A stretch of DNA of 43,474 nucleotides. Source: Oxalobacteraceae bacterium (GTDB taxonomy: Bacteria; Pseudomonadota; Gammaproteobacteria; Burkholderiales; Burkholderiaceae_D). Where the stretch lies: positions 1 to 43,474 of the forward strand of contig JAIXQK010000155.1 in assembly GCA_027485795.1 (NCBI GenBank), read 5' to 3'. A model generated the notes under the pieces. It saw only the letters and a list, made by a program, of their open reading frames with translations, was not told the DNA's origin and searched no databases. Below, piece after piece: positions 38,028 through 43,392 of the stretch. Position 1 is the stretch's first letter; the number at the start of each line of letters is the position of its first letter. Both the position numbers and the translations under genes were made by a program.

Positions 38028-38044
38028 TTGGCACACTGATTGCT
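38028..38044 (+). promoter_or_regulatory. Sigma-54 promoter of the activator gene
   Basis: TTGGCACACTGATTGCT: GG and GC exactly 10 bases apart, with TTGGCAC and TTGCT matching consensus. The transcript would begin near 38055, which rules out translation starts upstream of that point. Confidence 0.9.
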
Positions 38045-38081
38045 ACAAGGGAACCATCCCTTGTTCCCAGAGGCAATCATC

Positions 38082-39557
38082 GTGACGGCTCAATTCGAAA
38101 ACTCTCATCCAGCGCTGTGGCTGGATCCCAAGGCTGCGGTCGGTAGCACGGAGCGCGAGCAGCTTGCTGCCGCTGGCTTGCAGCTGCTGCCCGTAACCAC
38201 GCTTGACGACCTACGCCAAGGCTTGGCGAAGGCACGTTTAGTGGTGATCCGGCTGATGGGCGATGTTGGCCTGCTGCAAGAGGTGAAGAAGCTCACCCAG
38301 TCGTTTGGTCATGATGTGCCGGTGCTGTGCCGCGTTGATCAGGGCGAACTCTCGCTCGGCGTTGAAGCGATGCGGCGTGGTGCGTATCACGTACTACCCA
38401 CCAACGATTGGTCGGTTGATAGCTGGCGCGAAGCCCTGGCGCTCACGCCTAAGCGTACTGAAGTCACCCAGCGCAATCCGCAAACCTTTGTATTTGTTGA
38501 CCCTAACAGCCAGCACTTGCTTGAGCTTGCGCGTCGTGTTGCGCAAACCGAGGTATCGGCCTTGGTAGTTGGCCCGACCGGTGCAGGTAAAGAAGTACTA
38601 GCTCGTGTGCTGCACGATGCTTCGCCGCGTCGTAACGGCCCGTTTGTAGCCTTGAACTGCGCTGCGCTACCAGAACACCTAATTGAAGATTTATTGTTTG
38701 GTCATGAGAAGGGCGCATTTACCGGTGCCTTAAAAGAACACCGTGGTTTGTTCGAGCAGGCGCATGGCGGCACCATCTTCCTCGATGAAATTGCCGAGAT
38801 GCCGTATCACCTGCAGACCAAGCTACTGCGCGTACTACAAGAGCGCAAGATCACTCGTCTGGGCGGTCATGGCTCGGTTGACCTGGATGTACGACTTGTT
38901 GCCGCGACCAATAAAGATCTGCGAGAAGCCATTGCCAATCGCGAGTTCCGTGAAGATCTGTATTTCCGAATCAGCGCTTTCAAGCTGACGATTTTGCCGC
39001 TACGCGAACGTCCGGGTGACGTACTACCGCTGGCGATGCAGTTCCTCGAAAAATTTGGCCCTGCTGATCGTCAGGTGCAGTTAACTGCAACCGCGATCGA
39101 GCGGCTGCAGCATTACAGCTGGCCCGGCAATGTGCGCGAATTACAAAACGTGATTCAACGTGCGCTGGTATTGAGTAACGACGATCTCATTACCGAAAAT
39201 GAATTGATGTTCGACGAGGTAGAGCAGCGCCACGTATCACAGACTTTGCCGACATCGACGCAGTCCCAGCTGATGCAGTACGGTCCGCGTGAAGTATCCG
39301 AGGCGCATCAATTGAATGCTAGTGCACTTGGCGATCTATCGACCGCCGTGAAGAGCAGTGAATACCAAGTAATTATGGCGGCGATTCAGTCGACCAGAAA
39401 TCGCAATGAGGCTGCGAAAAAACTCGGCATTAGTCCACGCTCGCTGCGCTACAAGATGGCGCAATTCCGCGAGCTGGGAATGACTGCGAATGCGGCTACG
39501 AACAGCATGAACAGCATGATCGGCATGAATGGCATGCACGGTATGGCAGCTGCTTAA
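38082..39557 (+). CDS. Sigma-54-dependent flagellar activator (FleQ/FlrC-type) with degenerate receiver
   Basis: Enhancer-binding protein of 491 residues. The N-terminal receiver-like domain (1-125) has lost key residues: the phospho-acceptor position reads VVIRLMGD with Arg57, and the conserved Lys before PF is missing (LPTNDW). The AAA+ domain is intact: Walker A GPTGAGK (164-170), the sigma-54 contact loop GAFTGA (211-216), Walker B IFLDE (232-236). A Fis-type helix-turn-helix (NEAAKKLGISPRSLRYKM) is near the end, followed by a Met-rich tail (SMIGMNGMHGM). GTG at 38082 has AGAGG upstream. No partner kinase is next to it, so, like FleQ, it may not be phosphorylated. fliE follows, suggesting flagellar control. 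FleQ versus FlrC/FleR identity is unsettled. Confidence 0.9.
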   Translation: MTAQFENSHPALWLDPKAAVGSTEREQLAAAGLQLLPVTTLDDLRQGLAKARLVVIRLMGDVGLLQEVKKLTQSFGHDVPVLCRVDQGELSLGVEAMRRGAYHVLPTNDWSVDSWREALALTPKRTEVTQRNPQTFVFVDPNSQHLLELARRVAQTEVSALVVGPTGAGKEVLARVLHDASPRRNGPFVALNCAALPEHLIEDLLFGHEKGAFTGALKEHRGLFEQAHGGTIFLDEIAEMPYHLQTKLLRVLQERKITRLGGHGSVDLDVRLVAATNKDLREAIANREFREDLYFRISAFKLTILPLRERPGDVLPLAMQFLEKFGPADRQVQLTATAIERLQHYSWPGNVRELQNVIQRALVLSNDDLITENELMFDEVEQRHVSQTLPTSTQSQLMQYGPREVSEAHQLNASALGDLSTAVKSSEYQVIMAAIQSTRNRNEAAKKLGISPRSLRYKMAQFRELGMTANAATNSMNSMIGMNGMHGMAAA

Positions 39558-39578: not shown

Positions 39579-39926
39579 ATGATTAACAAAATCAATAGCC
39601 AAACCAATATCGACGCGATGCTGGCTACGCTGCGCCAGCATCAAGTCGACTCCACCGGTAACAACACACCACCGGTACTGACGCCGCCCACACCTGAAGT
39701 TGGCAAGCCCACATTTGGTGAGGCGATCAAGTCGGCGGTCGAGCATACCAATAACCTCAGTACGTACTCCGGTACGTTAGAAGATGCTTATGACCGTGGT
39801 GAGGATGTTCCGCTAACCGATGTCGTCCTCGCAATGCAGAAATCGTCGCTCGCATTTGAAGCAACGCTGCAGGTGCGAAACAAGGTTTTGAAAGCGTACG
39901 AAGACGTCCTGAACATGCCGGTCTGA
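39579..39926 (+). CDS. fliE: FliE, hook-basal body complex protein
   Basis: 115 residues. FliE joins the MS ring to the rod. The C-terminal family signature is present: DVVLAMQKSSLAFEATLQVRNKVLKAYEDVLNMPV. The N-terminal part (INKINSQTNIDAMLATLRQH, then a Pro-rich stretch) is typically variable. GAGGAGATAAGCGCC supports the ATG. It begins 21 bases after the activator gene and precedes fliF, the common proteobacterial order. Confidence 0.96.
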   Translation: MINKINSQTNIDAMLATLRQHQVDSTGNNTPPVLTPPTPEVGKPTFGEAIKSAVEHTNNLSTYSGTLEDAYDRGEDVPLTDVVLAMQKSSLAFEATLQVRNKVLKAYEDVLNMPV

Positions 39927-39973: not shown

Positions 39974-42031
39974 ATGGCCGAAGCGACAATCAACCCAGGC
40001 GGAACACAACCGCCCATGCCACCCGGTGTACCAACACTAGCGGGTGAACCCGGCGCAACCGGCGTTCCTGCAAACACTGGAGCGGGCCCTCGGCCTTTGC
40101 CAACAGCGGTGCAGGGCGTTGCCAGCGGATTCTCCTCATTCCGTGATTGGATGGATGGCGTCATCAAGCAGCCCGCCGTTCGTCGTGCGCTGTTACCGAT
40201 GACAGTCCTGCTGGTACTCGGGGTGACGGCGGTGGTGTTTCAGTCGACGCAATCGGTGCCCTATCGACCAATCATGCCCGGCATGACAGAGAACGACAAA
40301 ATGGCGGCGCTCGAGGCACTGAAAGCCGGTGATTTCAAGCCCAAGGTTGAGACGCAGAGTGGTCAAATTACTGTGCCTGAGGGGCGCTATCACGAAGCGC
40401 GAATTTTTCTGGCCGGGCAAGGTATCCCGAAAGAAGCCCAGCCGATCGGCATGGAGTCATTGAAAGACAAGTCGTCAATGACGACCAGTCAGTTCATGGA
40501 GCAAGTTCAGTACAACACTGCGATCGAGCAGGAGTTGTCACGCTCCATCATGCAGATTTCCACGATTAAAGCAGCACGAGTACATTTGGCTTTGCCAAAG
40601 CAATCTGTGTTTGTACGCGATCGCGCTACCCCGAAGGCTTCGGTGGTCGTCACACCGCATTCTGGCCGTGGTGTTTCAACGCCGCAGGTAAAAGCGATTG
40701 TGCATTTAGTGTCTTCGAGTGTGCCTTATCTCACCCCTGAAAACGTTTCAGTAGTAGATGATCAGGGCAATCTGCTGACTATGGATAACCCGGTCGATGC
40801 AGCGATGGGTCTGACCGTAGCGCAGATGCAGCACAAGCAGCGTACAGAAGAAACCTATAAGAATCGTGTCACCGAGTTGTTGGGTCCGGTAGTGGGTGAG
40901 GCTGCGGTACAGGCGCAGGTCAACCTGACCATGGACTACACCACGATTGAAACCACGACCGAAGATTTTGACGATAAAGACAAGGGCGTGAAGCCACGTT
41001 CCGAAGCGCTGACGACTGAGCGTAAGTTCAAGCTGGATCCAGAAGGTATCCCTGGCTCGCTGACGAACTCGCCGCCGCCAGATGCTGATCTGACCAAGAA
41101 CACCAATACCGACGAGAAGAAGCCGGCGACCAATGAAATCGTCACTACCCGGTCGACCCGTAACTTCGAAATGGATCGTCAGGTACGTCACACCAAGAAT
41201 TCGCCAGGCACGATCTCCCGTATCACGGTGGCTGTGGTGGTTGCTGAGCGTCCTGCGCCACCGCCGGCTGATGGTAAGCCGTTGCCGCCGGGTGCACCGA
41301 CCACGATTCCGTATACCCAGCAAGAACTGGATCGTATGTTGAACCTGGTACGTAGCTCGGTGGGTTACAACGAAGAGCGTGGTGATGTTGTCACGGTAGC
41401 ACCAGCACGTTTTGAGACCCTGGCACCTGAGCCTCCTAAGCCTTGGTATGCTGATCCGGACATCCAGAACGTGATTAAAATCGGTGTGGCGGCTTTCGTG
41501 ATCATCGTGTTCCTGCTCGCTGTGGTACGTCCGATGGTGAAAGGCCCGACGATTAACCAGCAGATCATGCCGCCCTACGGTCCGACGCCGGAAGAGGTCA
41601 AGCAACTCGAGGCCCAGGCGGCCGAAGAGGCCAAGGCCCAGCTCGAGAACAAGATGGCAGAAGAGGCCAAGATCGCCGAAGAGGAGCAAGCTGCGGCCTT
41701 GGCACTGGCTGCCGAAGAAGCCCGCATCGCGGAAGAGGCTGAGCAGTACGCTGCTGCCGAAGCTGCCGCGGTTGCCGAAGCGGCTGCTGCCGAGGGCGAG
41801 TATGGCGAGGATGGCGAATTGAACGAGGATGAGCTGGAGCTTGAAGACGGTGAGAGCCTGGATGAGCTGCGTGCACGGATGCAGGCGATGAAGCCGAAGA
41901 AACCTACCTTCTCCGCCGAGATGCTGGATACCGCCAACAGCTATGATGACAAGGTTGCGCTGATCCGGATGTTGGTGGCGCAAGAGTCTGGCCGGGTGGC
42001 GCTGGTCTTGAAGAACATGGTCCGTAATTAA
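39974..42031 (+). CDS. fliF: FliF, MS-ring protein with extended cytoplasmic linker
   Basis: Forms the MS ring in the inner membrane; its C-terminal tail binds the switch protein FliG. Two membrane helices flank the periplasmic part: LLPMTVLLVLGVTAVVFQ (about residues 74-91) and IKIGVAAFVIIVFLLAVVRP (about 500-519). Ring motifs include YRPIMPGMTENDKMAALEAL and ARVHLALPKQSVFVRDRATPKASVVV. At 685 residues it is over 100 longer than usual. The excess is an Ala/Glu-rich, probably coiled-coil and acidic stretch (about residues 535-630) before the FliG-binding tail (639-685: MKPKKPTFSAEML, SYDDKVALIRMLV, GRVALVLKNMVR). A proline/glycine-rich extension also precedes the first helix. Confidence 0.96.
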   Translation: MAEATINPGGTQPPMPPGVPTLAGEPGATGVPANTGAGPRPLPTAVQGVASGFSSFRDWMDGVIKQPAVRRALLPMTVLLVLGVTAVVFQSTQSVPYRPIMPGMTENDKMAALEALKAGDFKPKVETQSGQITVPEGRYHEARIFLAGQGIPKEAQPIGMESLKDKSSMTTSQFMEQVQYNTAIEQELSRSIMQISTIKAARVHLALPKQSVFVRDRATPKASVVVTPHSGRGVSTPQVKAIVHLVSSSVPYLTPENVSVVDDQGNLLTMDNPVDAAMGLTVAQMQHKQRTEETYKNRVTELLGPVVGEAAVQAQVNLTMDYTTIETTTEDFDDKDKGVKPRSEALTTERKFKLDPEGIPGSLTNSPPPDADLTKNTNTDEKKPATNEIVTTRSTRNFEMDRQVRHTKNSPGTISRITVAVVVAERPAPPPADGKPLPPGAPTTIPYTQQELDRMLNLVRSSVGYNEERGDVVTVAPARFETLAPEPPKPWYADPDIQNVIKIGVAAFVIIVFLLAVVRPMVKGPTINQQIMPPYGPTPEEVKQLEAQAAEEAKAQLENKMAEEAKIAEEEQAAALALAAEEARIAEEAEQYAAAEAAAVAEAAAAEGEYGEDGELNEDELELEDGESLDELRARMQAMKPKKPTFSAEMLDTANSYDDKVALIRMLVAQESGRVALVLKNMVRN

Positions 42032-42063: not shown

Positions 42064-42306
42064 ATGGCAGACGAACAGAAAGTCGCACCTAAAGCAGAGC
42101 AGACGCCCGAAGAACTCGAGGCGATGAAAAACAAAATGAAGCCGAAGAAAAAGAAGCCCACGCTTCCGGCTGACATGCTGTCAGATGCAAAAAGTTACGA
42201 CGACAAGCTGATGCTGGTGAAATTCCTCACTGAGAAAGAAAAGGGCCGCGTGGTCCTGATGGTGAAGAATATGCTGCGTGGTATTAGCGACCCAAAAAAG
42301 AAATAA
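42064..42306 (+). CDS. Free-standing FliF C-terminal-tail-like protein
   Basis: 80 residues. After a short charged lead (TPEELEAMKNK), residues 25-74 match the FliG-binding tail of FliF encoded just upstream (residues 639-685). MKPKKKKPTLPADML corresponds to MKPKKPTFSAEML, SYDDKLMLVKFLTE to SYDDKVALIRMLVA, and GRVVLMVKNMLR to GRVALVLKNMVR. It has no membrane segment, so it should be soluble, and it ends in a basic DPKKK. It begins 32 bases after fliF and ends 39 bases before fliG, in the same operon. By analogy it should bind the N-terminal domain of FliG, competing with or adding to the FliF-FliG contact. I know of no named gene of this kind. The DNA has diverged, so this is not a recent duplication. 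Confidence 0.85.
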   Translation: MADEQKVAPKAEQTPEELEAMKNKMKPKKKKPTLPADMLSDAKSYDDKLMLVKFLTEKEKGRVVLMVKNMLRGISDPKKK

Positions 42307-42345: not shown

Positions 42346-43392
42346 ATGGCAGATAACACAACAATTCCAGGAATGTCGGACGATCTCAAGCGCGAGCTGG
42401 GCGAGATCACCAATGTGCAGCGCGCTGCCGTCCTGATGCTCTTGCTGGGCGAAGACCTGGCATCTAACATCATCAGCTACCTGGATCCGAAAGAGGTGCA
42501 GGAACTTGGTGCTGCGATGGTGTCGGTGGCCGATATGTCGCAAGAAGCGGTGAACGTGGTGCTCGATGAGTTCGTTGATATGCTCAAGAAGCAGACCAGT
42601 CTCTCGCTCGGCACCACCGAATATGTAGAAACAGTACTCAAGCGCGCGCTGGGTCCGGATAAAGCGGCATCAGTGCTATCACGCATCATGCCCGGCCGAG
42701 CCAGTCGTGGTCTGGAAATTTTGCAGTGGATGGATGCACGCGCGATTGCTGAAATGATTCGTGGTGAGCACCCGCAGGTAACTGCGATTATTTTGTCGGT
42801 ACTTGAGTCCGAAGTGGCGGCTGATGTATTGGCCTTCTTACCGGAAGAGTCGCGTGCCGAGGTGGTACAGCGCGTTGCCAGTCTGGATACGGTGCAGCCT
42901 TCCGCGATGGAAGAGCTTGAAACCATTATGAAAAAGCAGTTCTCGAATAATGCATCCGCCTCATCGTCCAGCTTTGGTGGTATTAAAGCAGCCGCCAAGA
43001 TCATGAACTTCACCAAGGTGGAGTTGGAATCTTCCATCTTGCAAGGTGTGGGTCAGATCGACGAAGAGCTGGCACTGCGTATCCAGGACAATATGTTCAG
43101 CTTCGAGAATCTGGCCGCGGTGGACAACCGTGGTATCCAGGCGCTCATGCGTGCAGTCGAGCCCGATATGCTGATGATCGCCTTGAAGGGTGCGACCGAA
43201 GAGGTCAAGACCAAGTTCCTCGACAATATGTCGAGTCGTGCGCGTGGCATGTTCGTCGACGATATGGAAGGCAAAGGCCCACTGCGTATGACTGAAGTGG
43301 AAGATGCGCAGAAGAAGATCATGCGTCAGGCCAGAAAGCTGTCCGAGAAGGGCGAACTGATCCTGGCATCCGGCGGAGCAGACTTTGTCTGA
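42346..43392 (+). CDS. fliG: FliG, motor switch protein
   Basis: Rotor protein at the cytoplasmic face of the MS ring; it generates torque with the stator and reverses with FliM. 348 residues. The N-terminal FliF-binding domain includes ITNVQRAAVLMLLLGEDLASNIISYL. The middle domain has the conserved RGEHPQVTAIILSVL. The C-terminal torque helix region has SSRARGMFVDDMEGKGPLRMTEVEDAQKKIM with charged residues in place. GAGGTAGATC precedes the ATG. It ends at 43392, overlapping the probable fliH start. Confidence 0.97.
   Translation: MADNTTIPGMSDDLKRELGEITNVQRAAVLMLLLGEDLASNIISYLDPKEVQELGAAMVSVADMSQEAVNVVLDEFVDMLKKQTSLSLGTTEYVETVLKRALGPDKAASVLSRIMPGRASRGLEILQWMDARAIAEMIRGEHPQVTAIILSVLESEVAADVLAFLPEESRAEVVQRVASLDTVQPSAMEELETIMKKQFSNNASASSSSFGGIKAAAKIMNFTKVELESSILQGVGQIDEELALRIQDNMFSFENLAAVDNRGIQALMRAVEPDMLMIALKGATEEVKTKFLDNMSSRARGMFVDDMEGKGPLRMTEVEDAQKKIMRQARKLSEKGELILASGGADFV

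Follow-up and report, generated by a model that had tools for sequence, protein, structure and literature searches.

A stand-alone FliF-like tail encoded between fliF and fliG, a candidate accessory ligand of FliG in an Oxalobacteraceae genus

Organization of the fliF-fliG locus

The window analysed here is a 43,474-nucleotide (nt) stretch of DNA from an Oxalobacteraceae bacterium (contig JAIXQK010000155.1), and a flagellar operon stands at its end. Within this operon, a small open reading frame (ORF; 42064..42306, + strand) with an ATG start codes for a soluble protein of 80 residues that resembles the C-terminal tail of FliF. It is placed between fliF (39974..42031, +), whose stop codon lies 32 nt upstream, and fliG (42346..43392, +), which begins 39 nt downstream. 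The preliminary description of this DNA had reported such a FliF-tail copy at this place; its coordinates are exact and the resemblance is confirmed (E 2e-16). A consensus scan that covered sigma-70-like promoters and no other type found none between 41800 and 42500, so the ORF is probably transcribed together with the operon.

The neighbouring FliF is full length (685 residues), with its own tail and two transmembrane (TM) segments as judged by Pfam and hydropathy, and carries the domains PF01514 (E 5e-57) and PF08345 (E 2e-34). Its second TM segment (TM2; residues 500-518, 41471..41527, +, located by hydropathy) is followed by an acidic cytoplasmic linker of 115 residues with a net charge of -25 (41543..41887, +), or of 138 residues when counted from the end of TM2 to the tail tyrosine. 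The C-terminal tail itself (MKPKKPTF...KNMVRN; 41888..42028, +) was located by its BLASTP match to the 80-residue protein; the score of this tail against the Vibrio FliF C-terminus of PDB 8z5s (-4.1) is, taken alone, not significant. The 348-residue FliG carries PF14842, PF14841 and PF01706, and its gene provides the sole FliG_M match and the sole FliG_N-bearing frame found in the source genome. The operon also includes fliE (39579-39926; PF02049), preceded by a sigma-54 activator gene (38040-39557; PF00158).

Sequence of the 80-residue protein

BLASTP aligned residues 16-72 of the small protein with residues 630-684 of the window FliF, 30 of 57 positions being identical (53%) and 39 positive, with two gaps. 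Three parts can be distinguished: a variable N-terminal spacer (residues 1-24; 42064..42135, +), a FliF-tail-like core (residues 25-72, MKPKKKKPTLPADMLSDAKSYDDKLMLVKFLTEKEKGRVVLMVKNMLR; 42136..42279, +) and a basic C-terminal extension, GISDPKKK (residues 73-80; 42280..42303, +). The extension has no counterpart in FliF, and four of the 16 aligned proteins of the genus lack it or have GK only. The alignment first proposed, over residues 25-74, therefore captured the tail but ran slightly too far at its C-terminal end, since the BLAST similarity stops at residue 72. The protein retains 15 of 17 class-conserved FliF-tail positions, the reference being 17 FliF tails, 13 of them from the class-wide search described below. 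Chance resemblance is ruled out by the E value together with the occurrence of the tail in 16 genomes.

No Pfam or NCBIfam match to the protein appeared up to E 1, including PF01514 and PF08345, both of which are present in the neighbouring FliF, and a PHROGs search returned a single insignificant match (E 0.23). The maximum Kyte-Doolittle mean is 0.75, with no hydrophobic segment and hence no TM helix. Thus, the protein differs from FliF in being a separate gene product without the ring-building domains and both TM helices, in its own residue preferences and in its variable N-terminal spacer.

Conservation and selection within the genus

Among 21 genomes of the genus, 17 gave a tail match, which lay on a separate ORF in 16; in the remaining one (G011) the contig ends 129 nt past the fliF stop. 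Seventeen genomes gave a FliG_N match, and in 16 of them, all but G014, the ORF stands directly upstream of fliG. Genomes lacking a tail match were G004, G012 and G018, which have no FliG_N match, and G014, which has only a different FliG. The ORF is consequently not private to the source genome, and the expectation of the preliminary description that homologues would exist with the position conserved was borne out across the genus. The 15 other ORFs show 54-99% identity to the window protein in the alignment. fliG follows in 16 of 16 cases and a FliF tail lies on the other side in 15, the contig of G017 beginning within the ORF. In 13 relatives (L066 and L074 left out), the intergenic gaps range from 18 to 48 nt on the fliF side and from 22 to 86 nt on the fliG side, and the protein length varies from 70 to 238 residues, mainly through the N-terminal spacer. 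No hydrophobic segment was present in the seven genus members measured.

The spacer bears PAKT-type repeats in four genomes, where it appears expanded by Ala/Pro/Lys/Thr repeats such as PAKTAAVPAKT (L010 in G002, L012 in G013, L013 in G006 and L009 in G017). Whole repeat-bearing proteins reach 224-238 residues in the three complete cases (G002, G013, G006), that of G017 being cut by the contig end. A different fliF-fliG pair was observed in G014:C40 (L033) and G007:C108 (L032), with overlapping genes, the usual DPRMVANVVKNWV tail and no ORF in between. G007 is a carrier of the window type with a second FliG of this other type, G014 has the other type only, and each of the other 15 carriers has one FliG frame. 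A second FliG as the cause of the extra tail is ruled out in the source genome, which has a single one, although the carrier G007 does have two.

Outside the genus, a search of 35 genomes from other genera with the single protein found no match at E 0.001. A tail profile applied to 392 genomes of the family gave the 17 matches in the genus and two weak ones, in G230 (frame 302, E 0.0054) and G301 (frame 574, E 0.009).

Selection was assessed by the Nei-Gojobori method on a 35-residue core of the 16 small ORFs. The mean proportions of synonymous (pS) and nonsynonymous (pN) differences were 0.711 and 0.146, and the median omega, taken from 29 pairs with pS between 0.1 and 0.6, was 0.056. The corresponding values were 0.017 for FliF tails (15 rows, G017 having none) and 0.014 for FliG_N (16 rows). 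The core of the small protein is clearly constrained by purifying selection, yet it changes faster than FliF.

Membrane-anchored relatives in other families

When named genomes were scanned with the 16-row alignment, 29 loci were obtained: 13 small ORFs of the genus, 4 FliF frames, two of which (L074, L081) have a small ORF adjoining, 2 orphan membrane proteins, and 10 proteins of 203-218 residues. The last come from records labelled Comamonadaceae in six cases (one Limnohabitans) and only Burkholderiales or Betaproteobacteria in the other four. They share the same build, with a helix resembling FliF TM2 at the start, a long spacer and a FliF-like tail at the end. Each of these ten genomes contains two tails, and their FliF possesses its own TM2 and tail, which rules out a split FliF. 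When 349 genomes from the family of the Limnohabitans genome were searched, tails were found in 15: five, four of them new, have FliF and a separate protein, and ten have a single tail, one of these being cut by a contig end.

In all 14 such genomes in or near Comamonadaceae, the accessory protein (203-230 residues) is flanked by a fliH-like and a fliI-like frame (L076-L080, L082, L084, L085, L087, L090 and L174-L177), and another tail match occurs in a FliF frame. FliH and FliI were verified by Pfam in L080 and L174; L084, the only anchored protein tested, had no Pfam or PHROGs family match. An order-level search gave a match in 14 of 399 genomes. One of these, G647, belongs to another family and encodes a 149-residue protein with a TM helix and a tail, located between fliF and fliG (the latter assigned by Pfam). 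This protein is 40% identical to the TM2-linker-tail portion of its own FliF over 146 residues (E 2e-24) and offers the clearest picture of an origin as a copy of the fliF 3' end. Its tail and that of one Comamonadaceae-type protein likewise keep 15 of the 17 conserved FliF-tail positions. At the class level, 17 of 369 genomes had a match, restricted to the window pair, FliF-sized frames and G818; 14 of the other 15 matches, all except L155, were read as FliF tails. The 244-residue frame of G818 proved to be no accessory protein but a FliF interrupted by a stretch of N.

The window protein and the anchored proteins thus have in common a FliF-like tail on a non-fliF ORF of the flagellar operon, in genomes that also encode a complete FliF ending in a tail, and in both cases the FliF linker is long. 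The anchored forms differ by their TM2-like helix, absent before the tail of the window protein, and the Comamonadaceae type also by its gene place. The preliminary description of a soluble copy therefore holds for the genus but not as a general rule, because a TM helix persists in the relatives from other families.

FliF linker length and second tails

Measured from the end of TM2 to the tail tyrosine, the FliF linker spans 90-187 residues in all 32 rows from genomes with a second tail and 36-75 residues in 25 of the 27 rows where none was found. One of the latter, L089, was measured after the main comparison (then 26 rows, 25 of them at 36-75); the genome of L088, counted among those without a second tail, was searched and has one tail. 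L076 dropped out of the comparison because too little of its FliF was present. Also outside it were L063, L090 and L160 (which carry an accessory protein or are truncated), the class matches L140 and L155, and L124, apparently the same genome as L166. The absence of a second tail from the class genomes is weaker evidence, because the profile sees even their own FliF tails faintly. On the FliF-domain tree, the second tail needs four changes and the long linker three. A long FliF linker goes with a second tail, an association that is suggestive and no more.

Phylogeny and origin of the tails

A tree of 63 distinct tails (identical ones merged; 55 columns) has weak resolution. Even so, the 14 distinct small-protein tails of the genus stand behind one branch (100/100), as do the ten Comamonadaceae-type proteins (100/100), next to which the G647 protein is placed (95/85). 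Approximately unbiased (AU) tests rejected neither a tree in which the small and the membrane-anchored proteins form one group (p 0.231) nor one joining the small group to the FliF tails of its own genus (p 0.112), and these results would be compatible with one origin or with several. We infer that the ORF descends from a duplicated fliF 3' end; in this genus its product has no TM helix.

Comparison with known flagellar proteins

The preliminary description knew of no protein of this kind, and no described counterpart of a stand-alone FliF tail turned up in the open-licence literature searched. Two partial analogues can be mentioned. FlhX of Helicobacter is a stand-alone copy of the C-terminal domain of FlhB; like the window protein, it reproduces, as a free polypeptide, a single cytoplasmic domain of a membrane protein of the flagellum, although the parent protein and the process (export specificity) are different. 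FlgV of Campylobacterota is, as proposed below for the window protein, a small accessory protein near the junction of the MS and C rings, and its authors link it to the building of FliF rings of the right symmetry (available part of PMC10655999). It differs by two TM helices, a GFFxG motif and its occurrence in a different phylum, and a FliF-like tail is not mentioned in that part of the paper. Neither a TM segment nor a GFFxG motif is present in the sequence of the window protein.

Predicted binding to FliG

The tail sequence of the window protein shows the same Y-D/E-x-K ... R-V ... V-K-N pattern as the FliF_C tail in the FliF-FliG complexes PDB 5wuj and 5tdy, both met here as FliG_N matches. 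Because of these known FliF_C-FliG_N structures, we infer that the window protein quite probably binds FliG_N in some form. AlphaFold2 was run twice (20 and 25 rows) on a natural read-through fusion of the tail to FliG_N. It placed two helices in the tail, at residues 45-58 and 60-75 (or 60-72), with block means of 62-72, and modelled FliG_N at similar confidence. When compared with the PDB by Foldseek, the model had as its top match 5wuj_B, a FliG chain (E 6.9e-4), and FliG chains lead the matches, with a TM-score by query of at most 0.31.

A possible structural role at the MS/C-ring joint

The contact between the FliF tail and FliG_N carries the torque of the C ring to the MS ring and rod. 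We tentatively propose, at somewhat less than even odds, that the separate tail made by some freshwater bacteria is an accessory, FliF-derived ligand of FliG_N with a structural role at this joint. The tail would most likely co-fold with FliG_N in the manner of the FliF tail and so become part of the MS-ring/C-ring joint; the C ring would gain FliG-binding tails additional to those of the FliF ring, and FliG subunits without a FliF partner could still be held. A place at the joint, rather than in a cytosolic pool, is favoured because anchored forms exist and because long FliF linkers accompany the second tail.

A possible, though doubtful, extension is that in several Burkholderiales lineages the C ring contains more FliG than the MS ring contains FliF, the surplus FliG_N domains being completed by separately encoded tails, free in this genus and anchored to the membrane in other groups, together with the tails of long-linker FliF. 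A rotor with unpaired FliG would need a second tail, and separate tails and long-linker FliF would then be a two-gene answer to the symmetry problem between the MS and C rings. An accessory tail would also show how a rotor can alter its size or stiffness while the MS ring is not redesigned. In Salmonella, a 33-mer MS ring lies under a 34-mer C ring and the authors propose FliF33:FliG34 (available part of PMC11087270).

Several observations weigh against a structural role of this kind. Firstly, the wider C ring of C. jejuni has been ascribed to a wider MS ring, with 1:1 FliF:FliG and no extra tails (available part of PMC12222027); the 1:1 ratio is thus still argued between the two reports, as far as their available parts go, and a natural second tail, maintained by selection and present with a long FliF linker in more than one lineage, offers a genetic handle on it. 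Secondly, the AlphaFold2 models reached a mean pLDDT (predicted local distance difference test) of only 53.5 and 55.2 and a pTM (predicted template modelling score) of 0.40 and 0.41, with interface contacts that were not readable and no positive control, and the tail profile, searched against the PDB, retrieved unrelated weak matches only (best E 0.092) and no FliF tail. Thirdly, the ORF of G015 (L016 1450-1671) has a stop at codon 3 (TAA after ATG-GAA). In addition, 10 of the 15 tail-bearing genomes from the Limnohabitans family have one tail only, so a second tail is dispensable. Finally, the linker association is weakened by G740 (linker of 118 residues, no second tail found in a genome 86% complete, whose f17 relatives have one), by G1502 (L089; linker of 150 residues in a FliF truncated at the contig end, with a single tail in the whole genome) and by five of the 32 second-tail rows, all from family f17, which count orphan membrane proteins outside the operon. 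The tree offers only three supported independent contrasts, of which two agree, none disagrees and one shows no difference; this number does not allow a test, and the data had already been seen when the comparison was made. By eye, few tails of the set resemble FliF as closely as that of G015, whose stop could reflect an error, another start or decay.

Alternative explanations

Among the alternatives, the free tail could act as an assembly factor, titrator or chaperone that holds newly made cytosolic FliG, blocking early polymerisation or setting the pool, until the FliF tail displaces it. We consider this unlikely, while giving it real weight. It agrees with the lack of a hydrophobic segment in the genus members measured, with the ORF's own start codon directly before fliG and with the retained tail core. 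A TM helix would, however, be needless for a cytosolic titrator, and the relatives found in flagellar operons of other families keep one, which makes a purely cytosolic titrator less likely as a shared role; furthermore, many genomes with the same FliF tail type do without a second tail. Of the earlier interpretation, the soluble and conserved tail copy in the genus is upheld, whereas occupation of FliG by a free tail loses ground as a shared role because of the anchored relatives.

It is improbable, but conceivable, that the core binds FliG as a partial-occupancy modulator of the FliF-FliG joint, acting on rotation or switching rather than on assembly or filling. At one position, all 17 FliF tails compared have V, A or I, whereas T stands there in the window protein and in 14 further members of the genus (S in one), and the ten Comamonadaceae-type tails have T in six cases and A in four. 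These differences may be drift after duplication.

A partner other than FliG, with the fold being reused, is similarly improbable. FliF-like tails also end membrane proteins encoded at non-flagellar loci in families f17 and f18, and these orphans provide the strongest evidence for possible other partners of such tails. Those of f17, L083 and L086 measure about 255-440 residues and have at least two hydrophobic segments, whereas that of G715 (f18) has 283 residues and one segment. G714 and G715 (85% and 81% complete) each encode an orphan but gave no match to a FliF tail or to FliG_N, and in G1503 (L083) the orphan tail is the only one found, with none on a FliF. On the other hand, the five f17 genomes with both an orphan and FliF have one FliG each, as does G740, and the accessory proteins stand by fliG or between fliH and fliI and retain the positions conserved in FliF.

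Finally, a role-less remnant of tandem duplication is very improbable: the stop in G015 and the freely varying N-terminal length would suit it, but synonymous change is near-saturated while omega stays low, the ORF is kept in 16 genomes, and 14 distinct tails of the genus stand behind one branch.

Orphan tails and other FliF-related frames

The orphan tail proteins are encoded at L121 484-1680, L130 895-1674, L138 913-1680, L083 2643-3959 and L086 2897-4159, and, on the minus strand, at L135 1498-2292, L137 1495-2283, L139 1498-2277 and L131 1498-2349. Those submitted to Pfam, NCBIfam and PHROGs gave nothing over a cut-off. Their neighbours, named by reading, resemble mobA and fdhD or rmuC, and several adjoin a secreted protein of about 150-173 residues. 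In the source genome, a second YscJ_FliF match lies in a 295-residue frame (L157; G000:C178:44578-45072), which may represent SctJ, a ring protein from a type III system other than the flagellar one.
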